This document shows, piece after piece, positions 4,320-62,400 of a stretch of 64,000 nucleotides of DNA; position 1 is the stretch's first letter, and each line of letters begins with the position of its first letter. The DNA is from Elusimicrobiota bacterium. Its GTDB lineage: Bacteria; Elusimicrobiota; Endomicrobiia; Endomicrobiales; Endomicrobiaceae. The stretch spans positions 1-64,000 of the forward strand of contig JAFXOV010000031.1 in NCBI GenBank assembly GCA_017528425.1, read 5' to 3'. The translations under genes were made by a program, and so were the position numbers. The notes beneath the pieces were generated by a model. That model had not been told where the DNA came from and searched no databases. It saw only the letters and a list, made by a program, of their open reading frames with translations.

Positions 4320-4322
4320 TTT

Positions 4323-6376: not shown

Positions 6377-6441
6377 ATGTTGTAAATTAAAAATTTTTAA
6401 TTTATAATTTATTTAGGTCGTAGAAAAATTGTTTATATTAA

Positions 6442-6471
6442 TTGCTTTTGTTTGTAAAAATATGATATAAA
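6442..6471 (+). promoter_or_regulatory. Candidate promoter of the hpf-PTS operon
   Basis: TTGCTT (6442-6447), 18 bases, TATAAA (6466-6471), located 27 bases before the hpf start codon in a 121-base gap after the acyltransferase gene. Position and spacing are good. The hexamers are imperfect. Confidence 0.45.
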
Positions 6472-6497
6472 AATAAGATAAACCAAAGGAGAGGCTT

Positions 6498-7046
6498 ATG
6501 CAAATTAATATCACGGCAAGGCATTTAAAGTTGACGGATGCTATTGATTCTTATGTTAGACAGAAGATTTCAAAGGCAGGAAAATTTTTTGACGGAGATA
6601 ATGTATGGGCACATGTTATTTTATCCGTCGAAAAAAACAGACAGATAACGGAAGTCACTTTTTATATTGCCGGAAAAGCTTTTAGAGCAAAAGAAGAATC
6701 TGAAGATTTATATGCATCGATAGATTTAACAATTGATAAACTATCCAAACAACTTAGAAAAGAAAAAGAAATTTCTAAAATTCACAGAAAAGCAAATTTA
6801 AAAGTATCAAAATCAAAGAAAATAAAAGCAGAAGTTTTTTCCTATGATACAATGCAGGATTCAAGGACTAAAATTTCTGAAATAAAAAGATTTGATATTC
6901 GTCCTATTTCAATAGAAGAAGCTATAGATGAAATGGATTCTTTAAACTATAGAGTTTATATGTTTTTAAATTCTTCTACTGAAAAGATAAATGTTTTGTA
7001 TAGAAAAGACAGCGGTTCTTTAGTAATGTTAGAGCCGGAAATGTAA
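6498..7046 (+). CDS. hpf: Long-form ribosome hibernation promoting factor (HPF)
   Basis: 182 residues. The N-terminal 100 or so are the S30AE/RaiA fold (MQINITARHLKLTDAIDSYV, VHVILSV-like strand, LYASIDLTIDKLSKQLRKEKE). After a basic linker the C-terminal domain (RFDIRPISIEEAIDEMD through LYRKDSGSLVMLEP) is the dimerisation module of long HPF, which pairs 70S ribosomes into inactive 100S particles. The start is set by an AGGAG six bases upstream. It heads the PTS gene run. In proteobacteria hpf sits beside rpoN and ptsN, but rpoN is absent here. The likely cue is nutrient limitation, inferred from the family. Confidence 0.95.
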   Translation: MQINITARHLKLTDAIDSYVRQKISKAGKFFDGDNVWAHVILSVEKNRQITEVTFYIAGKAFRAKEESEDLYASIDLTIDKLSKQLRKEKEISKIHRKANLKVSKSKKIKAEVFSYDTMQDSRTKISEIKRFDIRPISIEEAIDEMDSLNYRVYMFLNSSTEKINVLYRKDSGSLVMLEPEM

Positions 7047-29069: not shown

Positions 29070-32000
29070 ATGACCGTCGATTACAAGAAAAATATAGATT
29101 CTTTTATCAAAAAAACAGTGGAAGAAATTGAGTTCTATCCGGAAAAATATAAAATTAAAATCAACAAAATTTTAACCACGCAACAAAAAAAAGATTTGGA
29201 CAAGTTAATAGATTTATACACGGCAAGTATAGCTTATAATCCTACAGATGCATCTGCATATTATAGCAGAGGTATGGTTTATAACAAGAAGACTGACTAT
29301 AAAAACGCTCTCGCAGATTTCTCAAAAGCAATAGAGTTGGATAAAAATTTTACTTTTGCTTATATTGCAAGAGGTAAAACTTATGTGTTTTTAAAAGACT
29401 TTGCTTCATCGGAGCAAGACTTTAATAAGGCAATAGAACTTAATCCTCAAAATCCGAGTGTATATACAACTTTAGGAAACATAAGAATAATTCAAAACTT
29501 ATTTAATGAAGCCATAGAGTACTTTAATAAAGCAATAGAGTTAAATTCGGGAATAGAATCTGCCTTTTACGGACGAGCTATGGCACATAGAGGACTATTG
29601 CAATATCAACAAGCAATAAAAGATTTCACAAAAGCCATAGAATTAAACAAAAAAGACAGTTATGCATTTTGTAACAGAGGAATAACTTTTGCCAATATTG
29701 AATGTTTGGACGATGCAATAAAAGATTTTGATGAAGCATTAAAACTAAGGCCGGAAGACGTATATATTCTTAACAACAAAGGTCTTGCTCACAGAAAAAA
29801 ATTGGAAGAAGATGCTGCCGAAGAATGTTTTAAAGCTGCCATGGAAATGATGCCTGAGGACAGTTATGCTTATTACAATTTGGGTAATTTACACAGAGAA
29901 CAAGGATTAGATGATAAAGCTTTCAAACTTTATTCCGAAGCAATAGATTTAGATTATTCTTTTGGTCCGGCATACATTGCAAAAGCGAGTATTCTTATTT
30001 CTAAAAATGAAATTCAAAAAGCGGTTGAAGAACTTCTTCAAGCTATAGAATTTATGGATAAAAGCTTTATCTGTTTTGCATTTTTAGGATACATAAACAT
30101 ATTAAACGAAGATTATAAGAACGCTATTATAAATCTAAAAAAATCGATAGAAATGGATGAATATAAAAATCCTGAATTGTTTTATTGTTGCGGTTTAAGT
30201 TATTTCTTTACGGACGATATTACTGCGGCAGAAAGCTATTTTGTAAAGGCTATAGACCTTTCTTATGAAACTCCCGAAATATTGTTTGCGTATGCAACAT
30301 GTTTAATTAAGTTAAACAAATATGGCGATGCAATAAAATACCTTACGGAAATAATAGAAAAAGATCCTTCGATTATCGAAGCATACTATTGGAGAGGAGT
30401 TTCTTATACGAATATAAGAAATTATAATCTTGCATTAGATGATTTCAGAAAAACCATAAGTTCGGACTATCTGTTAAAGGAAAGTAACTTTTACTTGGGA
30501 CTTTGCTATTTAAATATATCCGAAAACAACAATGCTTTGGAATATTTTGATAAAGCGGTTTCTTTAGGATATGATGATGTGTCGGTATACAAAAAAAGAG
30601 CATTGGTATTGGCAAAGTTAGGCTATAATGATAAGGCTTTGGATGATTTAAATAAAGTTTTGGAACAGAAGGGAGATGATGCCGAATCTTACCTTTGCAG
30701 AGCAAAGATACTTGTTATTATGAAACTTTATGATGAAGCCGAAAATGATGTCGTTAAAGTTTTGGAAATCGACGGAAGTAATCAAGAAGCTGTATTGTTG
30801 AATATAAAAATTAAATTCTTAAGAGAAGATTATGAGTCTTGTATCAGTTTTGCATCTGTTTTCTTAGAAGAAAATTTACAAAATGTAGAATGTTTAAAGT
30901 TAAGAGCAGATTCTTATGTTAAAGTTGAAGAATTACAAAAAGCTCTCATGGATTATACAAAAATAATAACATTGGATCCCGAAAAAGAGGAGTATTATTT
31001 AAGAAGAATAAATATATATATTAAGATGAAAGCATATTCCGAAGCTTTGGCGGATATAGATTTCTTGTTAAATATCGATGATAATAATGCATGCATATAT
31101 TTTTACAAAGGGATAATAAACAGAAACAGAGGGGAAGTTATCGATGCATTAAAGAATTATGATATTGCATTGAAAATTCTAAGCACAAACAAAGTTTTAG
31201 ATTTGGATAGTGAAATATTGGAAACGAAAAGATATTTTTATTCCGAAAAGAAAAAAGTAAAAGAGAAAGCAAAAACAAAAGAGAAAAAAAGTTCTTCCAG
31301 AAGTATATTCGGTATTAAGAAGAATACAAAAAGTGTAGCAAAACAAGACGTTGTTGTTGAAGAAAAGCAAGAAATTAAACAAGAAATTAAAGAAAATATT
31401 ATCGATACCGAAAATGAACGTATAGAAGACAATAATAACGTAAATACAAATGTAAATATAAATACACCGGAACCAATTTTGTCCGAAGAAAAAGAGTTTA
31501 CGGTAAGTAATGAGCAAAATAGTTTGGTTGCAGAATCAAAAGAAATAACAAACGATATAGTTCCCGGTGAACAACAAAGTCCAAATATTGAAGAAATTGT
31601 TGAACCTCCAATTCAAGAAAAAGTTGAAACACTTGATGAAAACAAAGAGGTTGTGACCGAGAATGCAGTTCCTGTCGTTCCGGAAGAAAACAACATTACT
31701 CCTGTTGTTGATAAACAGACGGAACCTAAAAAAGAAGAGGTTTTTTATGATATTAAACAGTTGGACAAATTGATAAAAGAAAATAAAACAAATTCTTTAT
31801 ACTATCAAAAAAGAGCAGACTTATATTTTGAACAGTCAAAATTTAAAGATGCAATAAAAGATTATGACATGGCAATTAAATATTCCGAAGAAAAAAGTCC
31901 GGAATTATATAAAAAGAAATGTAAGGCTTTTACGGCATTAAAGAAATATAAAGATGCAATAGAAAGTCTTAACAAAATTATAGATATGGGTGAGGGTGAT

Positions 32001-33497
32001 GCCGATTTATATTATGAAAAAGCGTTGTTATACCAATCACTTAAGGATTCATCAAATTATCTCAAGAATATAAATTTGGCTTTGGATTTTGACCCGACGT
32101 ATGACGATGCCTATTTGTCGAGAATAAATTATTATGTTAGTAAAGCGGAATATCTTGATGCTTACAGTGATGCGAAACAAGTAAGCGGTTTTGAGTTGAA
32201 GGTTGACAATAAATTTTTGTTGGCCAAAATCTGTTTTCAATTAAAAAAGTATTCGGAAGTTATTTCTTTGTTAACTTCCATATACGAAGCAAAAAAACAG
32301 GAAAAAGAAACGGATTTTTATTTGGGTGTCAGTTTTGCTGAAATGGGGGATTATGAAAATTCCGTTAAATATTTAACCAAAGCAATGGATAGCGGGTATA
32401 AAGATAAGAGATTGTTCTATTTCTTGGCAAAAGCCAATTTTAATAAACAAAACTTCAAAGTTGCTTTGGATTTCTTAAATAATGCCATAAAAATGGATTC
32501 TTCAAATTATGAATACTATTGGACAAGAGCTAAAGTATATTATGAATTGAATAATATAAAGTTATCATTGCAAGATTATACTAAAGCCGTAAAACTCAAT
32601 TCCAAGGATAAAGACTTGTTGTTGGAAAAGATAGATATTTTGGAAAAGAACAACAAAAAAGAGGATGCTGTATCTGATTATTCCAAGTTGATACAACTTG
32701 ACGGGAAAGACGGACTTTTATTTTATAAAAGAGGTTTGATGTATCAACAGCTGGGTAAAAAGAAAGAAGCCGAAAAGGATTTTTCTCAAGCAAAAGCTTT
32801 GGGAATAAAACCTGAACAAGATGAGATTACCGTTGATATTAAAAAAGAAGAAATTATTACCAAAGAAGAAATAATTGAAACTAAACAAGAAGCAAAACAA
32901 ATTTATCAAAATACTCAAACACAAAATATTCAAACCGAACAAGCTGCATATCAACAGCAAACTATTGATAACAATAGAATTCAAGAACTTAAACAAATGA
33001 ACGAGAACGAAATGAAGGCAAATACCGGAAAAATAAACGCATCTGCAAGTATGATACATTTGAACAGAGGTAATATAAATTTCAGAAAACAAAAATATGA
33101 AGAAGCTGTTTCGGAATTAGATAAAGCGGTTTCATTTAACTATAAAGATCCGCAATGCTATCTTTTAAGAGCAGAAGTTTATATTGAAATGAAAAATTTT
33201 GATTATGCAATAAAAGATTTGCTTATGGTTATAGAATTATCTCCTAAAGCCACTTTTGCGTATTCGAAGATAGCAGATATTTATAAAATGAATAATAATT
33301 TTGAACAGGCAAAATCTTTTTATACAAAAGCAATAGATATAAATCCGAAGTTTGCTTCCGCATATTTTGGTTTGGCTGAAATTTATGAAAAGAACAAACA
33401 AATAGATTTAGCTATTGAAAAATATAAAGAAGCTGCAAATCTTGACGTAAAATTGGCGAAAGAATGCCACATGAAAATAGCTGAATTAAATTCTTAA
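29070..33497 (+). CDS. 1475-residue cytoplasmic TPR-repeat protein
   Basis: No signal peptide or membrane span. Roughly residues 40-715 hold about twenty consecutive TPR-like units (for example YKNALADFSKAIELDKNFT, LFNEAIEYFNKAIELNSGI). A charged, disordered-looking linker follows (about 720-890), with a Lys-rich basic patch (EKAKTKEKKSSSRSIFG) and then Glu/Val/Asn-rich sequence. A second TPR block runs about 890-1240, a Gln/Thr-rich spacer about 1245-1320, and a short third block to the end. Such proteins are scaffolds; the client is unknown. Repeat units share DNA similarity, which risks assembly error and copy-number change. It is followed after one base by the ankyrin gene. Confidence 0.92.
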   Translation: MTVDYKKNIDSFIKKTVEEIEFYPEKYKIKINKILTTQQKKDLDKLIDLYTASIAYNPTDASAYYSRGMVYNKKTDYKNALADFSKAIELDKNFTFAYIARGKTYVFLKDFASSEQDFNKAIELNPQNPSVYTTLGNIRIIQNLFNEAIEYFNKAIELNSGIESAFYGRAMAHRGLLQYQQAIKDFTKAIELNKKDSYAFCNRGITFANIECLDDAIKDFDEALKLRPEDVYILNNKGLAHRKKLEEDAAEECFKAAMEMMPEDSYAYYNLGNLHREQGLDDKAFKLYSEAIDLDYSFGPAYIAKASILISKNEIQKAVEELLQAIEFMDKSFICFAFLGYINILNEDYKNAIINLKKSIEMDEYKNPELFYCCGLSYFFTDDITAAESYFVKAIDLSYETPEILFAYATCLIKLNKYGDAIKYLTEIIEKDPSIIEAYYWRGVSYTNIRNYNLALDDFRKTISSDYLLKESNFYLGLCYLNISENNNALEYFDKAVSLGYDDVSVYKKRALVLAKLGYNDKALDDLNKVLEQKGDDAESYLCRAKILVIMKLYDEAENDVVKVLEIDGSNQEAVLLNIKIKFLREDYESCISFASVFLEENLQNVECLKLRADSYVKVEELQKALMDYTKIITLDPEKEEYYLRRINIYIKMKAYSEALADIDFLLNIDDNNACIYFYKGIINRNRGEVIDALKNYDIALKILSTNKVLDLDSEILETKRYFYSEKKKVKEKAKTKEKKSSSRSIFGIKKNTKSVAKQDVVVEEKQEIKQEIKENIIDTENERIEDNNNVNTNVNINTPEPILSEEKEFTVSNEQNSLVAESKEITNDIVPGEQQSPNIEEIVEPPIQEKVETLDENKEVVTENAVPVVPEENNITPVVDKQTEPKKEEVFYDIKQLDKLIKENKTNSLYYQKRADLYFEQSKFKDAIKDYDMAIKYSEEKSPELYKKKCKAFTALKKYKDAIESLNKIIDMGEGDADLYYEKALLYQSLKDSSNYLKNINLALDFDPTYDDAYLSRINYYVSKAEYLDAYSDAKQVSGFELKVDNKFLLAKICFQLKKYSEVISLLTSIYEAKKQEKETDFYLGVSFAEMGDYENSVKYLTKAMDSGYKDKRLFYFLAKANFNKQNFKVALDFLNNAIKMDSSNYEYYWTRAKVYYELNNIKLSLQDYTKAVKLNSKDKDLLLEKIDILEKNNKKEDAVSDYSKLIQLDGKDGLLFYKRGLMYQQLGKKKEAEKDFSQAKALGIKPEQDEITVDIKKEEIITKEEIIETKQEAKQIYQNTQTQNIQTEQAAYQQQTIDNNRIQELKQMNENEMKANTGKINASASMIHLNRGNINFRKQKYEEAVSELDKAVSFNYKDPQCYLLRAEVYIEMKNFDYAIKDLLMVIELSPKATFAYSKIADIYKMNNNFEQAKSFYTKAIDINPKFASAYFGLAEIYEKNKQIDLAIEKYKEAANLDVKLAKECHMKIAELNS

Positions 33498-36874: not shown

Positions 36875-38122
36875 GTGTATTTAATTATAATAATTGCTTT
36901 TTTGTTGTTGTCTTTTTGTGTAAGTTCAATCTCGGATTATCTTAACGCAAAAAATTTAAAAGAAAATTTACCTGATGAATTTGTCGGGTATTACGATGAA
37001 GAGAAATATAAAAAATCACAAAATTATTTGAAAGACAGAACAAAATTTTCTTTTGTTTCATCAACAACATCTTTAATAATATCAATAATATTTATTTTAG
37101 TCGGTGGTTTTAATTATGTCGATTTATTTGCAAGAAAATTCGGTTACGGGGAAATCGTTACCGGATTAATTTTTGTTACCGTACTAATGTTGTTACTTCA
37201 AATAATACAAATACCTTTTTCTGCATACAGCACATTTGTTATTGAAGAAAAATATGGTTTTAATAAAACTACCATAAAAACCTTTGTAACGGATATAATA
37301 AAAAATTTAATTTTAACGGCAGTTATAGGGTTACCTATATTTGCCGTTATAATAATGTTTTTTATCAAGTATGGCTCTTTAGCTTGGATATATGCTTCGA
37401 TAACGGTTATTTTGTTTGAGCTTTTAATTACATTTATAGCTCCGGTGTTTATAATGCCGTTATTTAATAAATATGTTCCGTTGGAAGACGGAGAATTAAA
37501 AACAGAACTTGAAAAATATGCCAAAGAACAAAACTTTAAAATGAAAGGCCTTTATAAAATGGATGGTTCTAAAAGATCTACAAAAACAAATGCCTTTTTC
37601 ACAGGTTTCGGAAAATTCAGAAGAATAGTCTTGTTTGATACTTTAATAGCAAAGCACACTACACAAGAATTAGTTTCTGTTTTAGCACATGAAATGGGGC
37701 ATTATAAAAAAGGACATATTCGTAAGTTTATGGTTATGTCGTTTATAAATACTGTAATAATATTTTTCTTGCTATCTTTGTTCATAGGAAACGAAGGTCT
37801 TTTTGCGGCATTTAAAATGCAACATATTTCTGTTTACGGAGCACTGATATTTTTCGGTTTTTTATATACACCTATCTCAATGTTTTTGTCGGTGGTTCAA
37901 AATGTTATATCCAGGAAATACGAATATGAAGCAGACAGATATTCCGTAGCGACTTATAAAAATCCGCAAGCTATGGTGGAAGCATTGAAAAAACTTTCCG
38001 TAGATAATCTTTCAAATCTTACACCGCATAAAATGAAAGTTTTTATGGAATATAGTCATCCGCCTGTTATAGATAGAATAAAAGCAATAAGAAATATAAA
38101 AATAGAGGGGAAAAATGGATAA
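36875..38122 (+). CDS. M48 family zinc metallopeptidase, Ste24/CAAX type
   Basis: 415 residues, GTG start with TTGGAG eight bases upstream. Seven or so membrane spans surround the zinc motif HEMGH (VLAHEMGHYKKGH), the third ligand lies in YEYEADRYSV, and the N-terminal DYLNAKNLKENLPDEF and EEKYGFNKTT match Ste24-type peptidases. Bacterial homologues take part in membrane protein quality control; CAAX prenyl processing is not expected in bacteria. Its end overlaps the M42 peptidase gene by eight bases. It is unrelated in sequence to the CPBP modules of the giant protein, although both families were first named from CAAX processing. Confidence 0.93.
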   Translation: MYLIIIIAFLLLSFCVSSISDYLNAKNLKENLPDEFVGYYDEEKYKKSQNYLKDRTKFSFVSSTTSLIISIIFILVGGFNYVDLFARKFGYGEIVTGLIFVTVLMLLLQIIQIPFSAYSTFVIEEKYGFNKTTIKTFVTDIIKNLILTAVIGLPIFAVIIMFFIKYGSLAWIYASITVILFELLITFIAPVFIMPLFNKYVPLEDGELKTELEKYAKEQNFKMKGLYKMDGSKRSTKTNAFFTGFGKFRRIVLFDTLIAKHTTQELVSVLAHEMGHYKKGHIRKFMVMSFINTVIIFFLLSLFIGNEGLFAAFKMQHISVYGALIFFGFLYTPISMFLSVVQNVISRKYEYEADRYSVATYKNPQAMVEALKKLSVDNLSNLTPHKMKVFMEYSHPPVIDRIKAIRNIKIEGKNG

Positions 38123-44364: not shown

Positions 44365-44469
44365 ATGATGATAAAATTTTTTAAGGAAAGGTTTAATTCA
44401 ATAAAAATCTGTGCGGTTTTTACTGCCGTTTGTTTTATGGTATCGACATTGGGTGCAAATTTGTATGCT
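44365..44469 (+). other. Signal peptide of the giant protein
   Basis: Residues 1-35: a basic start (MMIKFFKERFNSIK), a hydrophobic core (ICAVFTAVCFMVSTLG) and ANLYA before a probable type I cleavage site. It predicts Sec export, which sits oddly with the ATP-dependent modules further on. Confidence 0.8.
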
Positions 44470-47400
44470 CTTCCTATGGCAGAAAACACAAACAAAAAAT
44501 ATGAAGATGTCTTTAATAAAACAGATTGTATAAGCAACGAATACGGGAAAATAACATCGAGTAAAGATAGTAACAGTAATATAACCGTAATAAATATACA
44601 AGATTTACATTGCCATCCTCAAACACAAAGAAATATATCAAAAATAATTGCTCAGATTGCCGATAAATATAATTTAAAGAAAGTCTATGTCGAAGGCGGA
44701 TACGGTGATATAGATGTAAGTTGGTTAAATTCAATAAAAGATGAAAATATAAGAAAGCAGGTAATAGAAAAATTATTGAATGAAGGAATGCTTACCGGAA
44801 GTGAATATTATAAATTAACAAGTAATAACGATAAAGTTGAGTTAAAAGGTATAGATGAAGAAAGTATCCATAAAGACAATGTAAAAAGGTTGTCCTGGAT
44901 AATATCCCAACAAAACAAATACAGAAAAATCACGGAAAGAGTGAATAAAGAAATAGAAATATTGGAAAACATACATATAAACGACAGAAACAAAAGATTC
45001 AGTAAAAGTATAGAGGAATATTCTTTAAATAAAATAGACAGCAAAAAATTTTACAAACAACTTATAAAGTATGTTAGAGATATAAATACAAATCCCGAAA
45101 AGTATAACAATATAACAGCAATAAGGTTGGAAGATTATCCTAATATCACTAAATTTATGACATTAAGAAAAGTGTCAAAGGATATAAATATAAAACAAGT
45201 AACTCAACAGTTACAAATAATAGTAAACGAATTTAAAAACAGATTGCCGTATGAAATATATACAAGATTTTTAAAAGAAACCGAGAATTTAAGTAACAGT
45301 CAGAAAGTTTTGGAATTAATAACATTATTGTGTGATAAAGAAAATATTAACTTGGAGAAATATAAAGCATTAAATGATTTTTTACAAACCAACTCCATAA
45401 CAAAAAAATTAAATCCTATAGAATTGGTTCAGGAAGAAAGACAATTAGTAACAGAAATAAGAAAAGCTCTTTCATACAATGACGAAGAGTATGAAATAAC
45501 ATTCCTGTCTGATTTCAATAAATATTTTCAAGATTATTTGGAATATAAATTGACGGATGCAAGTTGGAAATATTTTGAAAAACATTATTCGGAATTCAGA
45601 CAAACATACGGGAAATATGCAACCATAGACAGAATAAAAGAAATAGAAGATGATTTTGTCGAAATAAATAAATATTACGATATAAACGATCAAAGAAATA
45701 ATATCTTCGTAAAAAATTTGCTGAAAGGCGAAAAAATACATTTGACGTCAACCGATAAACTAAGACAAGAAGATGAGATGTTAAAAGCTTCGAAAGATGT
45801 AATAATTGCCGTAACCGGAGGTTTCCACAGCAGCGAATTGGAACAATTGTTGGCAAAAAACGACGTAAATACCATAGTAATAACTCCCAAGATATATGAA
45901 GATATAAAACAGGCAAACGATAAATATATCGAACTTATAGGCTTGCAGAGCAGAGTAAAAAGTCAGGCTTTATCATATACTATTTTATCGTCGGTAACTG
46001 ATGTTGATAAACAGAAAATACTGGTGTCTGTAGTAAAAGATATTTTTGGCGGAAACGAAGAAAAAATAAAAGAAGTTTTGGGAAAAGATGTAGATTTAAG
46101 TCTGTCATATGAAGAACAAAATATAAACGCAAAAGAAAAAAATGAAATAAGAAATATAATAGAAACCGCAATAGATCGGGTTTTAGCTGTCATTCCTCAA
46201 CAGGGTATGAAAGATGTTTTTGTTCCGAATATAGACGATATAATGTTGAATATGGCGGAACAATTGGTTAGACATGGCTTTTATTTTAGCGAAGGAATGA
46301 TATTTGACATAGAAAACTCAAATTTAAAAGGACAAAATTTAAGAGGAATACCTGCGGAAATTTATTCAAGAATGTTGCCGAGTTTACAGAAAGCTTTATT
46401 TAAAGTTTCCGTACAAGAAAATTTTGAGCCGAATGAAGAAAATCAAGGACTAAAACAATCCGATGATGCACTGAAAAAACAATTCTCGATTTTTGCTCCT
46501 TTATCCGACAGTAATAAAGTGTTTAATACATTGTCTAAAATACCTCATATTTGGGAAGAAATAGCGTTTAGAGTAATTCCCGTAAGTCTTGCTGTTCTTT
46601 CCATGTCTTTTCCTGCAATATCTTTTTTAAGTATTCCGATGGGCTTAATATTTTTCACGATATGTCAAAACCAATTTATAAAAGCACACAATATAAGTAC
46701 ATGGATAAAGGAAAATAATTTAGATTGGAAAACTTCGGATATTCTGCTGGCAACTTTATTTAATATTTTCCCTGATAAAGATTCAAAAGAGAAATTTAAT
46801 ACTGATGCAAAAAAAGCAGAAATTAGATCCCAAACAAGATCAAGGTTTTTGCCGACGATTTTATTGTCCGTTCCGTATTTATATTCCATGCTTTTCGCAC
46901 CGAGTATTGCTGTGGTCGGATTAGCTGCTGTTACAGGTGCTTTTGTTCATAAGTATTTGAATTTAATATTAAAAAATAAATTGAATATATTTGACGAGAT
47001 AGGTATAGTTACTATGTCGCCCGATGATGATTTTAAAATAGATTCAAATTATACCGTTTCGTTGAAAAACAGTGATGATGCACAAAAATTGTTTTTGGTA
47101 TTAAACGGCAGAAAACTCTCTAAAGAAGAAGCCGAAATTTTGACAGACATTATTTTAAGTAATGTTGAGCAATATGGATATTTTATAGGCCTTTTACAGC
47201 AAATAAGAAACAGGTTTATAGGAAATGCTGAATTGTTAGTTGAAACTCTTGCCGAGAGAATTGATATAACAAACACTAATCAACTTAATCTTTTTAAAGC
47301 AATCTCCGAAAATTTGATTTTGAAATGGAAAACTGTTTTGCCTGCACTTTTTAGAAGGTTGGATTTAAACAATGATGCAAATGTCTCATTGATAAAATAT

Positions 47401-50400
47401 TTTATATCCAAAAACCCGTACAATTCCGAGTTAAGTACCATAATAGTGGAAAAAGCCGATTTTAAGAACAAAAATCATTTGGTTATATTAAATGATTTAA
47501 AAAGTATTAATGACGATGTCTTGTCCGCATTGATGAATAAAGCAGATATTAAAAATATAGAACATGTAAACTTGATATTAAATTCATTATTGAAAGCAAG
47601 TTACTTGTTTTCTTTTCAAAAAGTTTTGTCCGATATAATGAAAGAAATTAATTTGTCCGATAAGCAAACATTAGAAGTCTTTTCTGCCTTTATGAGAAAC
47701 AACGGACATATTTTGGACGACAATAATATTAAATTACTCATACAAAAAATAAGTTTTGAAGCAGATGAACAGATTGAATTATTAGAGTCTGTTTTAAAGA
47801 AAAATACTGCTAATATTGACCTTGTTTTTGATATTTTGCTCACTAACAATATTAATCTCAATGATACAAGATACAGCAAAATATTTAAAATAATAATTGA
47901 TAAAATGTTATCTAAATACAGTTCTTATAAAGATGCAAGGAAATATTTTGACAAAAATATTTTCTTGCTTCCGGCAAATTCCGTTCAGGGAAAATATGCA
48001 TTCAGCTCATTAATAGATTTATTACACAACGAGTTAATTGCTCATCAAAACAGACACTTAAAAATAGTTAACGGTCGTATGGTTGTTAGAGTAAAAGAAG
48101 ATGGAACAGATCCTGTTCTTGATAGTATTTTCAGATTTGCACAGGATATTGAAACACGAAAAGAAATGTTTGATTCCGAGTTGAAAGCAAGATTTGATGG
48201 CTTTATGAGAGATTTGAATTTCTTAAAAGAAATGGAAAGCAGAACCTCTAAAAGATCATATACAAGAAATCGTAAAGTTACAGATTCCATAGCAGACAAT
48301 TTAACAATAGAAGAATTTTGTAAAGAAAAAGGTTTTTCTTTAATGAAACAAACACCGAATGTGTTTTTTGACAGCAGAAGATATTCTTTTACCGGAGTAT
48401 TAAATTTTATTTCCAAAAAACTTTTTGGCTTTAGACCGAGTCATCATAATCCTACATATATTATGACAACAAATACCGTAGATGCCGAAAAATTAGACGG
48501 AGTTATTTCTCAGTTTGATGCATACATGAATTTGTTGGATGAAAACTTGTATATATTGAATAAAATTGACGGCTTAACCGCTTTTGATTCTCAATTTGAT
48601 GATGTGGTAAATCATATAATTTTAATGATAGATTACTTGGAACAAATTAGTTATCATGGAATTTCTTCATTTAGAATGTCTTTGAAAAATATATTGGAAG
48701 AAATTAAAAATAATAATACTACAATTGCGGAACAAAAAAAGATTATAGAATCTCAATCAGGTAATTTAATTAAAAATATACTGACAATAAATACTCTTGT
48801 TAACAGAATCCATCAACAGGCAAATATGTCATTTGTAATGACAGTAATGAGTTCTTTGAGTGATTATGAAAATGCCGGTTACAATACGTTGGTTTCAAAA
48901 AACGATAACTTAATATCCGTATATAATTTGTCATCGAATGATATATCGCCGCAAGTGGAAAAGTTTTTATCCGATTTGGCGGAAAACCCCGATTTTTCAA
49001 CGGATGTAAAAACTCCGATTTTTGTAAAAGATAATATTGTGTTGTGGGTGGCAAGTTTAGGTGTACATTCCGTAAGAATCCTTATAGATTTTAATGAAGA
49101 AACGAAATCGATTCTTGTAGATTTTCACGAAGGAGCAATAGGCGATGGAAACACTACCAGAATAAAAATGCTTGATGACATTTTAACAAGTATGGGCTTT
49201 AAAGTTGAAAAATCTATTCAGGAGTTTGAATCAAGACGATTACCGGACGGAATTGTTGCCAAATTAAATAAAGATGTCGGATTAACAAACAATATGGACT
49301 TTAGTAATGCGGCAAAACAGGCTTTAATTCTTTTTAACAATTCTGCTTCTTTGAATAATCTTATAAGTAACAAATTTCAAATGAAACATAATATTGATGT
49401 TGCAAAACTTGCGATAATGGATATATATTCAAGATACTATGCATTGAGTTATATAAGAAGCAATTTCGTTAGAACAAGACTTAATACCAGAAGGAATCTT
49501 AATAAAATTTTAAAATCTTTAGAGTTACCTTTAATTCCGAGAAAAGAGCAGGGTTTTTGGACGTTTTTGAAAATAGGAAGAATAACAGTAGGCTTTATAA
49601 AAACATACGGTCAAAATACGATAGATAAATATGTAAATAAACCTATAGAACAAGCATTTGCCACGGGATATTTGAAGATAAACGATAAAGGTGAATTGGA
49701 AAGAAATAAGGATTATAATCCTATAGCGAGTATGAGTGATAAAATGAAAGATATTCTTGAAAGTGAAGTCGGACAAGCGGAAGAGATTGATATGTTGGAT
49801 CAGGGTGCACTGGTATCGCAAATGCCCGAGGGGGAAATGAATTTTAAAACAGTCGGTCAAATAGGCGGATATGTTTTAAAAACGGGATATATAAAGTTGA
49901 ACAATGGAAGATTGGATGAAAACACTAAAGGGGAATTTTTAGCGGTAACAACTTTAACCGATAAGAACGGAATAATAAGGTATACTTCAAGTGAAATTGC
50001 AGGATATCCCGAAAATATGAACACAGAATCCGGAAGAATGAAATTGAATTCACAACAATTGGAACAAATACTTAAAACAGAAAGATATGACATAAGTTCT
50101 GCAGAAAAGTTAACAAACTCAGAACTTTTAAATTACAGGTCAAAAATACAAGAAACAATAATCAAAGGTGATGCTCCGGTTGCTTACGGAACAATGATTT
50201 CGTCACCGAAAGAACAAAAAAATACTGTATTTGCAAGATTAGGCGAAAATACTAGAGAAACAAGTTTATATATTGATAAATATGCAAGTCCCGAAAATGT
50301 GACGGAAGCATCTCAATACGATGTGTCATTATTTGCCGGTGGTTCGTATTCAAGCCATGCCGGAATAGTTTTAAGAGAATACGGAAAAACAGCCATGATA

Positions 50401-53400
50401 GTAAACGATTCTCAAATGGTTGATAAAAAGATGAGAATAAAGTTTTATCAACCTAAAGGAGCTGTCGTTCATACCGGAAACTTGGAAACTTTAGAGACGG
50501 AAGAACATGAAATAGAATTAGAACCCAACGATATCGTATTAATAGATATACGCAATAATAAAATGATATTGTTTGAAAGTAAAATGTTTAAGAAGAGAAA
50601 AGTCGGGAATATTTTATTTGAATTACAGAGATATATAGATAAACAAAATGTTGAGAAAGTAAAAGATTTTATTAATAAATATAAAAACAGTACCATAGCA
50701 GACAAGATTATAGAATACATATATTATCAATCTGCGGATAATCCGTGGCTTGAGCCTTTGTTGGATGTTGATACCGAAGCATACAGAACACAGCCTTCCG
50801 TAATAACACCCAGAACCATTGTAAAAAAAGTTTTACAAATAACGGACTTTGTTAAACATACAAGCAGAAATGCCGTATACAAATTCGGAGAAAAACAATC
50901 TCTCGATGCTTCAAAAGTCGGAACAAAATCGGCAAATCAATCAAAATTATATTTAGCTTTAGAACAATTGAAAAAAGAAACGGGAATAAAAAATGTTGCT
51001 GTTCCCGAAGGCTTGGTAATCGGTTATGACATTTTAGAAAAGTTGTTAGGTGAAAGATATTCTGAATTATATGCCGAATTGGAAGCGGTTGTCACAAACG
51101 ATTTCTATAACGAAGAGGAAAGAAATGTAAATATTCAAGATATAACGGCGGAAATAAAAATTTTAATACAAAATTTATCCGAAGAAGATATTATAAATTA
51201 TATAGGAACAGAGAATTTAGCGTTGTTTAAAAATAAACTTGCAATAGTAAGATCTTCCGGTGTGGGGGAAGATTCTCAAGAATATTCTGCAGCGGGAATT
51301 GCCGAAAGTTTCGGTTCCGTACAATATGATAATATTTCCAAAGCCGTAAAAGATACTTTGTTATCTTTCTTCTCTTCAAGAGCCATGGATTATATGGTTA
51401 AATCTTCAAATATTATAAAGCCGGCAATACTTATAGAGGAATGGTTGGAGGCTGATAAGGCCGGAATAATGATGAGCGAAGATACAAACGGTATGAGAAT
51501 AATACAAGCCGTAAACGGACAATGTGACGATGTTGTTTCCGGAAGGAAAACTCCATATACTTTTACGATAGATATAAAAAGCGGGACAAAAATTGACGGG
51601 AATTATACAAATGCAAAAACATTAACGAACAAACAACTTGAACAACTTACAAGAATAATGGAATGGTTGGAACAAGCAGAAGGAACTCCGGTGGATATAG
51701 AGTTTTTAATAAATAACGATGTTATTTATATCGTTCAGGTAAGACCTATAACCACATTAAAAAAACAGAGTTTAAAAGTATTGCCGAGAAGTTTGTTTAC
51801 AAGCGTTGAATCTGCTTATGAAGCTTTAAATTTAAAACAAAAAAACAGATTATCCAAAGATATAGAAACAATAAAACAAAATTTTAAACAATATAAGTAT
51901 AATGAATCCGAAATTGAAGGTTTGTTAAGGGATTTTGTTAAAGCGGAAAAGAAATTTTTGGATGCAGATAATAAAAATTATAATGTTGATTTAACTTCTC
52001 TTATAAAAAGCAGAGAAGATTTGGTCAGAATAACAACCTTAATAAAAGAATTATTGAGATTGAAAATAACTAAATTGGAAACAGAAAACGAAATGTTGGG
52101 ATTAAAAATATTTTTGAATCCCTCTTTCAATCGTATTATAAACAGAGAATTAGAAGATTTCTTCGATAAAGGAATATCATTTGTTCAAAAGTATTATATA
52201 GCATTGTCGATATCAAGGTTTTTAGGCGGTATTGTTGATATAAGTAAATCGGATTATGATGCTGATCAATTTAATGATATCGTTAAAGTTGCTACGGGAA
52301 TGTATATAGCAGCTTTGGAAGATCAAAAGGATAGAGTTGTGGCCGATAAAAATACAAGGTTTATTTCTCTTGCTGCGGTCTCAAGTTATGATCAACCTTT
52401 TGAAGATTCCGGACTTAAAAAATTATTGGAAGTGATGGGTATACCTTACGATTCGGATAAGGTTTCACTTATTAATGCGGATTTTGTTCCCGCAACAGAT
52501 GCAAAGAGTGAATTTTTAAGACAAATAGCCGCACTACAATCCGAAGAATCTGTTTTCATTTCTTTTGACGGACACGGATTTCCGGATTCCCTTGAAGTAG
52601 GATTTAATGCCGATATATCGAGTGAAGAATTTGCAAAAGCTTTAATTCAAGCATATAACAACGGAATGGACTTAAGTAAAATAACAATTAATTTAAGTTC
52701 ATGTTTTTCGTGGTATTTTGCAGACAACATTTATGATGCTTTAAATAAAGAATTCGACAGGTTGGAACAAAAAGGTAATGTGGTTAGCAGACAATTCCCT
52801 GTAATTTGGGCTTCTGCGGGACATGAAACAGTATATGGTTATTCTACATACTATAGGGATAACGATAAGTTAACTCCGATGAGTAACGAGTGGAACGGCT
52901 TGTTGACTTCGATATCACAATCCAACCCTGAAAATATAACCATCAAAAATCTTTTACAGGCAATGACTGTTGTGGGATATTCTAATCCCACATTGTTTGT
53001 ACACAGTGATTTTGTTCAAAAGGTTATTGAAAGCGGAACGGAACAAATACTCGAAATAGACAGCAGAAATAAAACATTTGAACAATCTTTAACGATAGGA
53101 GAAAGATTTAAACAACTTTTTAAAGCAAAAAAATTACATAATAATCATATTAACTTTTTTGAATTATCAATCTTTGCTCCGTTAAAAGATGAAAACAAAC
53201 TTTTTAATATATTGGATAAGACAGCACATATATGGGAAGAAATATTTTTTAGAACACTTCCTATAGCTTTAACCCTTTTACCTGTAACATCGTTCATATC
53301 TGTTCCGTTGACTTTGATTTTGTTTTCACTTTTACAAATACAGTTTGTAAGAGCACATAATATAACTTTATGGATAAAACACAATCAACTCGATTGGTCA

Positions 53401-56400
53401 ACAGGTGAAATTTTAAAAGCGGTATTGTTTAATGTTTTTCCTTCGGAAGAATCTAAACATTTGTTCAATTTCGATCAAAAAATGTCTCTTGAAGAACAAA
53501 CTAAGGGAAGAATTTTATCTGCGATAGGATTATCTGTTCCGTATTTAGCTTCGTTATGGCTTAATGCAAATATTCCTGTTATAATTTTAGCTTCTGTTAT
53601 AGGTATTGTCGTTCATAAGGTTTTAAATTATTTTTCAAAAGACAAAAAAGAGTCGAAAGAATACGAAGATTTCTTTGCAAAATTTTTGGATGATACCGAT
53701 ACTCCTTTACCGTCTTTGCAACAATTTTTAGCAGACAAAGAATTCATTGATTTGAGAGATGAACAACAAAGACAAGAATTAGTTGAAATTTTGGACAGAC
53801 TTGAATTATCCGAAGAAGAAACTTCGGAACTGGCAAAAAAAATAGATTTAAATGATATAAATCAATATACATATTTATTGAAGACTTTTTCGGAACAGAA
53901 AGGTTCTTTAGCAAATAACAGAATGCAGATAATTACCAATTTAGTTCAAAATGCCGATATCAACAATAAAACTCACTTTGAATTTATTCGTAAACTTTTG
54001 TCGGAAAATCAATATTATCGTGTTGATTTAGATACATTATACATACTATTGGAGAAATTAGATTTTAGCAATATTGATCATGTTATGTTGTTAACCGATT
54101 TCTTAAAGTCACAAACATATGACAATAGTTTACAAAATATTGCTTTTAACAGTGCTGTTGCGGAAAAACTTGATGTTAATGATCTTAACCAATTAAAGAT
54201 GTTGGAGCTGTTTTCCGATATAAATGACAGTGCTTTATCTTATTTGGTGTCAAATTTTGATTTTACCGTAAAGAAGAACCTGCAACCTTTCTTTACAAAA
54301 ATTGCGAAATACAATGTTTTACATAAAGGGAAAATACTGGATTTAATACTTGCCAAGTTGAATTTGAAAAATCCTTACGAGTTTAAAATGTTGTTTGGCC
54401 TTGTGAAAAAGGAAGAATCTCTTAATCCTTTTGTTGTAGAGAAAATTTTCAAAGCATTGGATTTTACCGATAGAGACCATTTGGAATTGGTGAAAAATAT
54501 AGTAAATAAAGAAAATGTGGAAGTGTCCGTCCTTGATTTGTTTGCGCAGTATTTTAATATGGGAAATACTAATCATGTGAATATATTAAGAGAATTGTGT
54601 AAAAATATATTTGAAAAAAATCAAAGAGACTCGCATATTGTTTTATACAGAAAAGTAAAAGAAAAATTTGATGAGTTGAATATTGCCGATATGAGCGATA
54701 AAGATAAATATATCTTTCAATTCTTTGCAAACGAGTTGATGATAAGCATGCAGGAATTATTGACGGATATACAGAACGATTATATCGAAGCTAAAGATGA
54801 TAAAATGATAATAGCTTTGATCGGACCTCAACAATTTGATGCAATAATCTATATGATAATTATTTTGACGAGCTTTGAAAGTATATTGTCAAAAGAAACA
54901 CTTGACAGATTTACAGGTTTAAAAGAACAAATAGCTTATTTTGAAAGAATGAGAGCGGAAGATGTAACAATAGAAGAATTTGCCGAAAAATACGGATTTA
55001 AAGTTTTGCAGGAAACACCGAATGTATATTTGAGTAGTGACAGATATCCGTTTACGAAAGTATTGAGTTTATTACCAACCGGAATTTTAAAACACAGAGT
55101 AAAAAAACTTGCACCGACATATTTTATAGAAAAAGAGGAATTGGAAAAACAAAGTTTAAAAAACATATTGAACAAATTTGATTCTTATATGAAACTTCTC
55201 GATGAAAATATGAATGTGTTATATAAATTTATGGGCTTAACCGCTTTTGATTCCCAGTTTGATGATGTTATAAAACACATAAATTTAATGATAGATTATT
55301 TAGCTGCTTTTAATACTTCGGATGCAAATTATTTTAGAAAAGTATTAAGAGATATTTTGAATGAAATAAAAGCCGGTAAAACGACAGTTGCCGAACAGAA
55401 AGCTTTCTCAACGGGCAGAGGTAAAACCGTTAGTGATATTACAACGATACATCGGCTTATTAACCGTATTCATCAACAGGCAAATATTGATTTTGTTATG
55501 GCTATAAGACACAGCGCTCGTTCATCTGCGAATAAAGTTCAAAATGTGTTTGTCACAAAGGGTGACAGAACAATAAAAGCTTATAACCTGTCGGAAAACA
55601 AAATACATCCGAATATTGAAAGATTGTTATCTTTATTGGCGGAAAACCCCGATTTCTTGATCAGAAGAGATTCTCAAATATTTATTAAAGACAATATATT
55701 TTTATGGAACGGATTGTTAGGTGATCATTCGGCAAGAGTTTTAATTGATTTTAACAGAGAAAATGAAAATATATTTATAGATTTTACGGAAGCTGACAAC
55801 AATTCTGCAAAAAGTCAATCAAGAATTTCAACTTTAGAAAGAATGTTAAACAATTTTGGGTTTATCGCAAAATCATATAACAACAAAGCTAATTTGACTG
55901 CAACCGTAAGTAAAGACTCCGGTATAACAAACGATACGGATATTTGCGAAATGGCACAAAAAGCTATGGCTCTTTTAAGCAAAGCTACTTCTTTATACGG
56001 GAAAAATACCCCTATAGAGATAATGGAACCTGCAGTTAATGATATCAATTTCTTCAATAATATTTTGGACTATTTACAATTGCCTTTAATTCCAAATGAA
56101 GAAGCAAGTTTAAGAGTTAAAAAGATATTTTTGCTTAAAAGAAAAAAATATACACTCAGTCAACAAACAATAGATAAATATGTAAATAAACCGATAGAAC
56201 AAGCATTTGCCACAGGATATTTGAAAATAAACGATAGAGGTGAATTGGAAAGAAATAAGGCATATAATCCGATATTAACGATAAAAAATAAATTAAAAGA
56301 TATGCTCGATACAGATTTGGGACAAACGCAAGAAACGGATATGTTAAATCAAGGAGCAATAATATCTCAAATACCCGAACAAGAGATGAATTTTACCAGT

Positions 56401-59400
56401 GTCGGTCAAATAGGCGGATATGTTATAAAGACCGGATATATGAAGTTAAGAGACGGAAGACTTAATAAAAACAGAGGAGAATTTTTAGCGGTAACTACAT
56501 TGACCGATAAGAACGGAATAATAAGATACAGTTCAAGCGAACTTGTCGGATTTGCGGATAATATGAATAATGAAACCAGCAGAGTAAATTTAAATGCCCG
56601 ACAATTAAAATTAATATTGGAACAGGAAAACTATCCGATAAATCTTGCGGAAAAATTTACAAACGGAGAACTTTTAACATACAGAAACAGATTAAAGGAA
56701 AATATAGTAAGTACAACAACACCGACAGCATACGGAACAATGATATCAACATCCGAAGGCTTAAGAAGTGTTTTGGGAATTGTAAACGGTGAATCTGACA
56801 GTAAAGGTTTATATGTTGATAAATATGCAAGTCCGGATAATGTTACGGAAGCAGCTCAATATGATGCGTCATTATTTACGGGCGGTTCATATTCAAGTCA
56901 TGCAGGAATCATCTTGAGAGAATACGGAAAAACAGCCATGATAGTAAATGATTCTCAAATGGTTGGCGGTGCGTTTAGAATAAAGGTTTATCAACCTAAA
57001 GGAAATGTAGATAATGACGGAATATTTGAAACACAAGAATTGCAGGAAAGTGAAATAGAGTTAGGCCCCAATGATATAGTGTTAATAGACAGTAAAGACA
57101 ATAAGATGATGTTGTTCGAACAAAAAGTATTTAAGAAGGGTAAAACAGGAAATATTTTGTTTGAATTACAGGAATATATAGATGGTCAAGATGCGGATAA
57201 AGTAAAAGAATTTATTAATAAATACAAAGATAGTACCATAGTAGACAAAATTATAGAGTATATATACTATCAGTCTGCAGATAACGTATGGCTTAATGAT
57301 ATATTGTCCGATTACGATAAAAAAGGTATAAGTGCTGTTGATTCTGCCGGTAAAGCAGAAAGAATTATCAATAAAATTCAATTAAACTTCAATTGGTTTT
57401 TACCTCATTCCGATAGTGCCAATGTATACAGGTTCGGAGAAAAAGAATCTCTTGATGCTTCAAAAGTCGGAACAAAATCCGCAAACCAATCCAAATTATA
57501 TTTAGCAGTAGAACAATTAAAAAAAGAAACCGGTATAGATGATGTAAGAGTTCCAAACGGTTTTGCGATAGATTATACAATCTTGGAAGATTTATTGGGG
57601 CAGGAATATGTAAATCTGTATTCTCAGTTTAGCTCTATTGTAAGAAAGAAAAACAAAACCGAACAGGATTTACAAAACCTTGATGAAATAAAAGCCCGAA
57701 TAGTTACACTTATAAACGGTATCAGTAATAACAAAATAAAAGATTATATCGGTAAAAGAAATTTAAAAACTCTAAAAGATAAAGTATCCATAGTAAGATC
57801 ATCCGGAGTGGGAGAAGACGGAAAATCGTATTCCGCTGCCGGTATAGCCGAAAGTTACGGAGAAGTTGAAGCCGATAATATTCCTCGTGCTATAAGAGAT
57901 GTTTTATCGTCTTTCTTCTCGGATAGAGCAACCGAATATATGGCAAAATCCGGACATATTATAAAACCTGCCGTTCTTATAGAAGAATGGGTTGATTCCG
58001 ATAAAGCAGGAATTATAATGAGCGAAAATTCCGAAGGAAAAGGAATTATTCAGGTTGTAAACGGAATCGGAGAAGATATCGTTTCGGGGAGAAAGACTCC
58101 GTATACTTTTGTAACAGATATTGAAACCGGAGAAAAAATCGACGGTAATTATACCGGTGAAGAATCTTTATCTTCAGCTATGGTTTCAAAACTAACCAAA
58201 GTAACAAAATGGTTGGAACAAGTAGAAGGTGTACCGGTAGATATAGAATTTTTAATAAAAGGCAATATTATTTATATTGTTCAAGTAAGACCTATAACGA
58301 CACTTGATGATTATACCGAAGAAACAGAAGTTGAAACCGAACAACAAGAGGAACAGGAAGAACAGCCCGGACCGGCAGATGAAATTGCCGATGATGCAGC
58401 TTTTGATGTTTCCGATGAAGATTTTTTCCTTGGAGATTTTACTCCGTTTAGAACCGGTAAAACAGCGGATGCAAAAAAATCAAAATCCGCAGCCAAAAAG
58501 ATAAAAGGGAAAAAAGGTAAGAAGAAAAGAAATATAAAATCCGCCAAAACAATAACTGGGGTTCATACCGGTGATCATTTAATTAATGACGATATTCGTC
58601 AACCGGTAGGACGTTCACAGAGAGATGTTATAGAAAGTAACAAAAAATTGGCACACTCGAAAGATCCTTCAGACAGTTCTTTAAATTTGAATACAGATCA
58701 AATAAAAACTGTACTTATGAGTTTTGGCTTATCAAAAGAAGAAGTGGAAAATATTGATTTCAGTGAAGGTTTGCCTGATGATGTTGTTTCATTATTAAAA
58801 AATACAAATTCGCAGGTTACGGGAACAACTATAGACCCAACGAAGAAATTAATGGATAATTTAAGAGAACATCCGATATTGTTCTCCTTGGCTATAGAAA
58901 CTTTTCTGAGAGTTTATGAAAAGGCTCTCGGCGGTTCCAATGCAACATTCGGAGATCTTTTGTCATTTATAGAACAGAGATATTCAAAAAGACTTTATGA
59001 AGCAACGTGTACGGATTTAAGAGGCTTTTTTGGAGAATACTATGTTGCCAACACCTTGATTGCAGGTATTATCCCCGATAAAAGAGCCGGCCCTATAATA
59101 ATAAGACCTATGTTACCTACCGACGGAAGCATAATGGGATATGATGTTTATAGTCCTGTAAACGGTGATAAATATCAAGTCAAAACGGGCGGAAGCGAAA
59201 TTGTTCATAAACATTTCGGTAAATATTGGTTTAATCTGTTGGATGTTGTAAAAGGAATTTGTGCTATTCCGGTAATAACCACAAAAAATGTGAAAGAAAA
59301 CAGTTTCAGAAACGATGACAGAGTTCAAGCTATGGATGTTACTACGGAAACAGTAACAAAATTTGCTCACGAATTTGTAGCTGCTTTACACGGAATTGCT

Positions 59401-62400
59401 TTTAAGACGAAATATTCTTCGGTAAGAGATTTAAAACTTACCGATTTAATAGATAATTTTAAAGGTTTTGATACGGAAAAGAAGATGTCCGTAGACGAAC
59501 TTATGAACTTGTTAAACAAAAATTATACGGGTGCCGTAAAAAAAGAAAAGAAGACTATGAGAGTTATTCCCGTAAATGAAACAATAGAAGTTGCTCCCAT
59601 AAGGTTAAAAACAGACTTTATTATAAATCAAGATATAGTTGTTAACGTAAACGCCGAACAATCACATGTCCTTTATATTGACGGTGAAAGTATTTTTGTT
59701 AATGAAGAAGGAAAAGAAGAAATAACGGAAGAAAATTGTTCTTTATACGGTATACAAAAAGTAGAATATGATGATGACGGATATATTTCATATATAACAT
59801 TTAATGAAGGTGTTACAATAAGTACTTTAAATTTTGACAAAAAACCGAAAGGTTCGGCTGCAAATAACGTTGAATTCTCCGAACAGGAAATAAAAGAAAT
59901 GAATTCCGATACGGGAACCGACGGAGTGATTAAAATTTATTTGGATGACGATGTAGATACAATTTGTCATTTAATTAAGGAAGCGGCAAAAAGTAAAAAA
60001 TTGATAGAATTCCATTTCTTTAGAGAAAGTTTTAAAACATCAGATTTAACCCAGAGTCAACTTTTGGATGTATATAAAAATATAGCAACGTTAATTTCCA
60101 ACAGATTCCAAATGTCCGATATTTTTAAGAGTTCCACTGATTATTCTAGATATACGGATTACGGCTTGGACTTTTTCTTAACCGAAATATTGAAAAATTC
60201 GTTGCTTCAAGGAAATTTGGGAAAGGTGGAAGAACCTATAGCAATGTATATTGATTTGGATGGAAAAGAAGAAGTTAAAGGTTTTTCTATATATAACAAA
60301 GCAAAAGAGAATAAAGAAGCCAAACTTGATAAAGGAAGAGAAACTTTGGCAATATCGGCACATTTGATGCTTAACGGTGACAGTAAGAGTACGGAAATAA
60401 TGACTCTCAACCCTGTAAGAGAGTATGATTTTGATGAAGAATATGAAATAGGTAACAATGAATACAGAAAAGCTACGGTATCTCTGAGAGATGAAATAGA
60501 TATGCAATTATATCATTTGGAACGAGATTATAAAAAATCCGAAAAGAATGTTTCGATTACGGATGTCGCATTACAAACGGATTCTACTGTTGCGGAATTG
60601 TACAGATTGGGTATTGAAAAATATAAAAAAGAATATTTGGAAGAAACAGGAAAAACAGAAGATGAATTAACTTCCGAAGAGTTGATTGCCATAGACCAAA
60701 AAGCAGAAAACTACAGATTTACTTTTGAAGGTGTATTAAAGGGTGTAAAGATTGAAAAATATTCCTTCTTCTCGGAAAAATTCTTGCCGTCTCACAGCAA
60801 ATTGACACCGTTAATGAAAACCGGTGTTGTGATAACAAAATTATTGGCTGTAAGTATAGGCGTTATGGTAACGGGACTCTCTTTTACCCTATTGTCAATG
60901 CTTGTTTATTCATTAATAACCAAATCCGTTGTTATTGTACCTTTAGTCCTTTCTGCTATATCAGCATTTTTCGGAACGATGGCTGCTGTTTATTCGGGTG
61001 AGTTATTTCATCTCTTGTGGAATGTTGTTGCTGTTATAACCAATAATGAAAAATATCTTCTTCAAACAGATATGAGTATAGCCGATGATTCCCAAAAAGG
61101 AAAAGGTTTCAATCATCCCTTATCTAAAATCTTAAGACCTATAAATTTAAGAAAGGAAATACGAGACAGTGAAATACCGTTAACATTTGTGGAACAGGCA
61201 AAACTTAACGGTGCGGAATTTATTTCAATTTACGATCTTGTTAAATATCTCGGAAAATTAAAAAGAAAAGATTTTAGAAATAATGAAGGTATTGAAAAGT
61301 ATAGATCAAGAACAAGCGGATATACGTTCTTTATGCACAAAGATTATTATGAAAGAGAAAACAAATATGTTGAAGACAGTTTCGGCTTTGCATTGGGATT
61401 GAGTTATGTTCCTGTTTTTGACGGATCAAAAAGAAAAGTAAATTTGGTCCGCGGTATTTGTGAAAGAAATAATTTGGTTTCCTGGGAAAGAGGTTACGAA
61501 TATTTTTACGGGAAAGAATATTCTGCAAAGACGACCGAAGAGTATATGGATAAAGTAAGAGATTTGACTTTGGAGTATAATAAGAAAATAGTATTCTTCT
61601 TACCGAAAAACTTATTTTCACATGATTTTTCGTTTAAAACAAGAGAAGAACTTGAATATATACAGCAACATCCCGAACTTTGGGACAAAATTGTATTAGT
61701 TTTCGGAACATACGATTGCTTGAATATACAAAATCAAGAGACTTTTAATCGGTATTTCAATGATAACGGTTCTCTTGAAGATGAAATGAGATTCTTTTCT
61801 ACAATGAAAAGATTGCTTTCAAATCCTAACCGTTTTATGATGGTAAAAGATAATTTAATTACAAAATTGGAAAGTAAAGGACTTGTAAAGTTTTTCAGAA
61901 ATACATTCTCATTGTCTTTAGACGGAATGGTTAAAACAGCGGAAGTTTTAACACGTTTGGAATATTCTAAGAAACAGGATCGTACCGAAAACACTGATGC
62001 CGTATCGCGGTTAAGAACGGATATTGAAGAAAATAATCGAAGACAAGTATGCTTTATATGTACGGCAAATATAAACAGAAGTGCTGTTTCTCATTTGTTG
62101 TTTGAAGACAGATTGGCGAAATTAGGTGTAGATAATATTTCGGTAGTTTCTGCAGGATTGTTACCTTTATCCGAAAAGAACACCGATGCCTCTCTTGCTT
62201 TAGGACAGGATTATGAAAAAATCCTTGAAGATTTTGATGTTGAACCTGAACTTATAGAAAGATTCCGTTCGGAAGAATTTTCTAAAAAACATGCCGGTTC
62301 CGATTATTTTATAGTTGTAAGTCAAAAGCATAAAAATGTTTTAATGGAACAATATAATGTCGATCCCGATAAAATTATTTTATATTCGGATCTTGATCCT

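Follow-up and report, generated by a model that had tools for sequence, protein, structure and literature searches.

A survey of huge proteins considers that some of them could be cleaved, with proteases and motifs that are hard to predict (PMC11573180, in the passages cited here), and the giant open reading frames (ORFs) of Omnitrophota, as described in the passages cited, are very large, contain membrane helices and have few domains annotated (PMC10066038). Precedents for a peptidase inside the chain are the cysteine protease domain of MARTX toxins (excerpted from PMC3153235) and the caspase-like and PrsW releasing peptidases of polymorphic toxins (as given in the cited section of PMC3482391). 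Here we report the analysis of a giant gene in a stretch of 64,000 nucleotides (positions 1 to 64,000 of contig JAFXOV010000031.1, assembly GCA_017528425.1), below called the window, from an uncultured gut bacterium of the Endomicrobiaceae (Elusimicrobiota), a near relative of Ca. Ruminimicrobiellum. Its product contains a clan CD, C13-like peptidase module (CD module), followed directly by a membrane module that resembles the CPBP intramembrane proteases (CPBP-like module), and such a pair is a recurrent protease cassette of long frames. Our preferred, still tentative, reading is that the product is an exported modular giant in which both members of the cassette would be active and the chain would be cut near the module borders.

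The giant frame is open and complete at 44293-64140 (+) of a contig of 78,479 bp (G000:C43), with 6,615 codons counted from ATG 44293. The start codon is likely to be ATG 44365 rather than ATG 44293, because a GGAG box stands in front of the former; so read, the giant ORF occupies 44365..64000 of the window and continues past its edge to the stop codon at 64138-64140 of the contig. The residue numbers of the catalytic sites (E731, H2737, C2780, E2958 and others) count from ATG 44365. The chain has two tandem blocks, at residues 730-2489 and 2957-4671 (these numbered from ATG 44293), which are 44% identical over about 1,800 columns. Each block has a CPBP-like module first and a swivelling-His motif with a PPDK_N domain last, and the CD module lies between blocks 1 and 2, directly ahead of CPBP-like module 2.

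The CD module is encoded at 52162..53214 (+), with a predicted dyad in the order His-Gly and Ser-Cys, formed by H2737 (codon 52573-52575) and C2780 (codon 52702-52704). The first-pass annotation of the window had noticed this pair at the block junction and ascribed it to caspase/CHAT proteases; the pair itself is borne out, while the caspase/CHAT kinship gives way to C13, which ranks higher both by sequence and in the VIA structural list. The AlphaFold2 model of the module has a mean predicted local distance difference test score (pLDDT) of 85.1 and a predicted template modelling score (pTM) of 0.85. With this model Foldseek finds 72 matches at E<=0.001, and the 50 of them listed are caspases, legumain, GPI transamidase, MALT1 and one Geobacter protein. 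VIA-align gives legumain (7fqi_C) a Z of 16.9 with a root-mean-square deviation (rmsd) of 3.5 Å over 192 residues and GPI transamidase (7w72_K) a Z of 16.2 (2.8 Å, 185 residues), followed by a metacaspase (6w8s_A; Z 14.9, 3.4 Å, 190 residues) and caspase-7 (4hq0_B; Z 13.5, 3.1 Å, 179 residues); the order by Foldseek E-value, unlike the VIA list, has caspases ahead. Scanned alone, the module narrowly passes the Pfam C13 cut-off (23.0 bits, cut-off 22.8), and inside a piece of 2,000 amino acids (aa) it falls under it (18.7 bits); within the family, 13 of 31 members match C13 at E<=0.1. The 31-member profile searched against PDB finds GPI transamidase 9ub7_C at E 5.9e-5, lining up the catalytic His and Cys of the two, and legumain at about E 0.01. 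Two residues ahead of the catalytic Cys the CD module has Ser, where the aligned legumain has Glu and the aligned GPI transamidase has Asp. The fold, as modelled and as indicated by these profile matches, is that of clan CD, nearer to C13 (legumain, GPI transamidase) than to caspases.

In an alignment of 31 CD modules (A1) with a mean column identity of 25%, three columns are invariant and no others: that of the predicted His, that of the predicted Cys and one of Pro. In a hidden Markov model (HMM) alignment of 45 distinct homologues, counted among rows with a letter, the His is kept in 43/43, the Cys in 43/43 and the Gly in 42/43, and of the 352 model columns the predicted His and Cys alone are unchanged in all such rows; these rows are not independent, since many belong to close orthologues and 31 of the sequences also served to build the model. 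The clan CD fold together with the invariant dyad makes cysteine peptidase activity of the module very likely. At its end, the Asn/Asp of SNxTxF is near-invariant (36 N, 4 D and 1 T of 41); it adjoins the last strand of the model and therefore may have a structural role rather than being an autocleavage site.

The two CPBP-like modules, both on the forward strand, are located at 46438..47133 (EEIAFR, FIKAH, HKYLN) and 53107..53841 (EEIFFR, FVRAH, HKVLN). Copy 1 has E731/E732/R736 (46555-46572), F771/H775 and H862/N866 (46948-46962), and copy 2 has E2958/E2959/R2963 (53236-53253), F2994/H2998 and H3084/N3088 (53614-53628); an extra segment separates the two His motifs in both window copies. In an alignment of 26 rows, W, E, E, P, Q, F, H, Y and H are invariant, with R and N at 90%. 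A larger alignment of 49 distinct rows, again counted in rows with a letter, keeps EExxxR (E 44/44, E 44/45, R 41/44), FxxxH (F 41/42, H 38/40) and HxxxN (H 41/41, N 36/41). The claim of the first-pass annotation that two CPBP-type modules with these motifs are embedded in the giant chain is therefore upheld, as both copies are located and the residues are near-invariant in homologues. Likewise, its count of three protease-type sites in one chain is supported by the located modules and their conserved catalytic residues, the comparison among homologues that it had proposed giving full conservation for the His and Cys of the CD module and for the first E and the second His of the CPBP-like modules. 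Its further suggestion, that the giant product cuts itself into parts as a bacterial polyprotein, is supported in part, and the modules may instead act in trans or be cargo themselves. As for the link to the known family, a search of 31 genomes with PF02517 gives 11 matches, several inside giant frames. Aligned by hhalign with six embedded modules, the CPBP-like modules reach a probability of 98.8% (E 6.3e-17), with EExxxR, FxxxH and HxxxN in register; five of the six exceed the PF02517 cut-off, two of the five only with their frame neighbours. Judged by these alignments, the modules appear assignable to CPBP distantly, through intermediate sequences. In addition, two copies at L052 682-1401 (-) and L054 442-1185 (-) keep all three motifs with a core mean hydropathy of -0.26 and -0.34, and these helix-less copies are perhaps soluble forms.

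We then present an overall view of the cassette. Of the 39 distinct CD modules, 28 are followed by 250 aa or more of sequence, and a CPBP-like module of the WEE type comes next in 15 of the 28, one false match (L064, EEALLR) having been removed from this count. In some of the other 13, the CD module precedes a membrane module of a second kind, which carries E together with FxxxH and HxxxN-like motifs. In the giants C4, C31 and C18 of the window's own genome, G000 (L079, L080, L082, L085), the module after the CD module is of a membrane or helical type and shows IETF, FxxxH and HxxxN-like motifs; taking it as a CPBP relative was set aside on a weak hhalign result (66.5%, E 5.4e-5, 29 columns). 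Over 294 Elusimicrobiota genomes, at E<=1e-5, a CD match is found in 16 and a CPBP-like match in 17, and all 45 of the 45 CD matches lie inside frames of at least 1,034 aa. A scan of genome contigs gives 12 loci, labelled only as Elusimicrobia, Endomicrobiaceae, Elusimicrobium, Ca. Ruminimicrobiellum or Ca. Proruminimicrobium; since every hit belongs to Elusimicrobia, Omnitrophota is rejected as the phylum of the host.

The giants also share their two ends. The window giant begins, behind a signal-peptide-like hydrophobic stretch, with an N-terminal leader domain (INIQDLHCH ... VTGGFHS) at 44563..45951 (+). This domain of about 460 aa is present in at least 37 of 61 related genomes, heading frames of up to 12,027 aa among the matches listed, and it has 17 matches in 16 frames of the window's own genome. 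Searches against Pfam and PDB give no identification of it, nor do they support a likeness to TraB/TIKI/EreA-type domains. At the other end, a tag closes the chain with ILSAA or MLAAA, that is (I/M)L(S/A)AA, as seen for example on the giants L070, L072, L078 and L082; that of the window giant, CRAMLAAA, is at 64114-64137 of the contig, just beyond the window. In the own genome, a loose form of the tag, [ILM][LM]x[AC]A, ends 11 of 15 leader frames with known end, as against 2 among the 110 remaining frames that reach 200 aa or more; the Fisher p of 5e-11 is optimistic, because the tag was first noticed on a set overlapping the test set. The strict form ends 9/15 versus 1/110. As a DNA pattern in 37 genomes, a narrower form occurs at 22 places versus 4 for the reversed pattern; 14 of the 22 stand at the end of frames that stay open over 506 aa or more, and the other 8 are in short frames. 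We take the LAA end to recall C-terminal degradation tags. The common leader and C-terminal tag together suggest one dedicated export or processing class.

Comparison of orthologues shows how such chains are kept and rearranged. Three orthologues of the giant protein are 68-77% identical, and the ratio of nonsynonymous to synonymous substitution rates (dN/dS) between orthologues is 0.07-0.31 in each part tested, with synonymous sites well toward saturation; purifying selection is shown to act along the giant frame. One orthologue (G008, L153/L154) is shortened to 3,658 aa, with residues 1-3122 joined in frame to 6081-6617. Residues 3123-6080 are missing from it, the loss beginning just past CPBP-like module 2 and both ends being kept; the retained C-terminal region corresponds to 62527..64000 (+) of the window and runs on beyond it to the tag. 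This deletion shows that the cassette border is a place of cargo exchange or loss, with both ends of the chain retained. Near window residue 702-732, the orthologues L068 and L069 have an extra stretch of more than 100 aa with EILENSFMHGN, which by eye resembles a later stretch of the window protein, as in module shuffling.

Based on the above, the preferred reading supposes that the giant chain is exported with its CD peptidase, the CPBP-like module directly behind it and the further CPBP-like copy upstream. After export, the CD module would cut the chain near module borders, the CPBP-like modules would either cut it as well or hold it in the membrane, and the enzyme pieces (PEP-synthase-like, PEP being phosphoenolpyruvate, and phosphatase-like) would be set free, the nearest working model being the peptidases that release parts of MARTX and polymorphic toxins. 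We infer that the most likely single use of the CD module would be to cut its own chain: it lies inside that chain and has a partner resembling a membrane peptidase, the cassette marks a cargo border, and the two kinds of toxin set a precedent.

Several results weigh against this reading, and they are considered here together with the other explanations. Among the 16 own-genome leader frames, a CD module is present in just 4 (C43, C25, C31, C4) and a CPBP-like match in 3 (C43, C25, C23); self-cutting by the CD module is therefore not the general processing route of this class in cis, and the majority of leader giants, being without the module, speak against a general need for it. The search for a conserved cleavage motif yields none that stands out. 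The candidate SIF motif also stands ahead of CPBP copies without a preceding CD module, and therefore looks like part of the CPBP module. Moreover, similarity searches may miss homologues without the catalytic residues. The rarity of the CD module among leader frames fits the view that the peptidase works in trans, on the host ciliate, neighbouring cells or other giants, with the CPBP-like part as a membrane anchor and the chain left whole. This explanation, which we hold to be unlikely though the strongest of the alternatives, also agrees with the matches in other own-genome giants, which read like assorted enzyme cargo (ABC1 kinase and M48 in C4, HD and a weak PBECR3 nuclease match in C25). 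The part cited of one study describes Ruminimicrobiellum metagenome-assembled genomes as ruminant-derived and proposes an association with ciliates, with which rumen Endomicrobiaceae are thought to live (PMC11257099); legumain molecules, for their part, process one another in trans according to the cited passage (PMC4357240). However, a CPBP-like module often follows the CD module (15 of 28, as above), and in the window the CD module is internal, as with releasing peptidases, and not terminal.

The remaining points against the preferred reading concern the CPBP-like modules, and with them the explanation that these are no longer, or never were, peptidases, but membrane anchors keeping a metal site, so that only the CD module would cut. 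The Pfam Rce1-like model finds 3 of 26 members with a best E of 0.18, under the Pfam cut-off. Against five stand-alone CPBP proteins, hhalign gives a probability of 0.5% for the CPBP-like modules and 2.6% for the six embedded modules. The structure model (pLDDT 76, pTM 0.62), from whose alignment L076, a copy without hydrophobic helices, was left out, has 0 Foldseek matches at E<=0.001 and a best VIA Z of 4.7, so that it matches no Rce1-like fold. The name CPBP-like is used because a direct Pfam, stand-alone hhalign or fold match is missing. Some copies keep the motif without the hydrophobic helices, which suits this explanation as well. Still, the E, E, F, H, H, R and N columns rank with the best conserved of these modules, and the strong hhalign link leads to embedded modules of which five pass PF02517, and we regard loss or lack of peptidase activity as rather improbable. 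A sorting or transpeptidation device, in which a GPI-transamidase-like C13 part and the CPBP-like part would join the chain to a surface anchor as in myxosortase, is very improbable, since the tag is without the invariant Cys or the Arg-rich end of MYXO-CTERM and most tagged frames are without the cassette, even though GPI transamidase is the best PDB sequence match of the CD module, the giants have a common C-terminal tag, and a CPBP enzyme of Myxococcus sorts proteins that carry C-terminal tags (cited part of PMC11980579). Beyond the preferred reading lies a wider and doubtful proposal, namely a dedicated Endomicrobiales giant-protein system of leader, (I/M)L(S/A)AA tag and swappable cargo, in which the protease pair would mature some chains as bacterial polyproteins and a CPBP-like or other protease may read the tag.

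Elsewhere in the chain, a PEP-synthase-type swivelling His motif is located at 50350..50427 (+) in block 1 (SSHAGIVLREYG) and at 56893..56970 (+) in block 2. The PPDK_N ATP-grasp domains, both Pfam matches with approximate limits, are at 50914..51774 (+) and 57463..58143 (+). Twice in this chain (50350-51774 and 56893-58143), the swivelling His stands ahead of the PEP-synthase-type ATP-grasp, whereas the aligned PEP synthase has the two in the opposite order. Near the C-terminal end, a low-molecular-weight phosphatase-like module (CTANINRS) is found at 62047..62451 (+) with E 5.8e-8. By eye only, a motif like a PD-(D/E)XK nuclease site (GYDVYSPVNGDKYQVKTGG) is seen at 59137-59193. Around the giant gene, a Ste24-like M48 CAAX protease gene lies upstream at 36875-38122 of the window, an autotransporter with Chlamydia PMP repeats lies downstream (L006 6957-11087), and a protein of 1,475 aa rich in tetratricopeptide (TPR) repeats is encoded at 29070-33497 of the window.

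Compared with known systems, the parts are of known kinds, and what may be new is their recurrent pairing in giant chains together with the common leader and tag; the consulted portion of the open-licence PubMed Central literature has no report of such a cassette, leader or tag in this group. For the fate of huge proteins in Elusimicrobiota and related phyla, a conserved internal protease pair offers named testable residues in expressed fragments, and the common leader and C-terminal tag are a handle on the export of such giants. The CD module is like legumain and GPI transamidase (C13, clan CD) in fold (Z about 16-17), in the His-Gly/Cys order and in the sequence profile match, and unlike them is embedded in giant bacterial chains and paired with a membrane module. 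The CPBP-like modules share EExxxR, FxxxH, HxxxN and hydrophobic helices with CPBP/Rce1-like enzymes (PF02517), to which embedded members link them by hhalign, but in the window they are not stand-alone, fall under the Pfam cut-off, carry the extra inter-His segment and have no fold match. Unlike the giants, where the modules are built in, myxosortase is a separate enzyme, whose tag combines a Cys motif with a helix and an end rich in Arg, the likeness being that of a CPBP enzyme tied to C-terminal tags (PMC11980579, in the part cited). The Omnitrophota giants belong to a different phylum, and the cited passages mention no protease cassette (PMC10066038). In working, the closest likeness would be to MARTX toxins, where an internal clan CD peptidase, the C80 cysteine protease domain, frees effectors from a giant chain, although the nearest relative of the window CD module is C13. 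Polymorphic toxins, as described in the cited section (PMC3482391), likewise have a common N-terminal part, varied enzyme cargo and internal clan CD or intramembrane peptidases; the window cassette differs in joining both peptidase kinds, and the giants in having a C-terminal end that is common and not variable.

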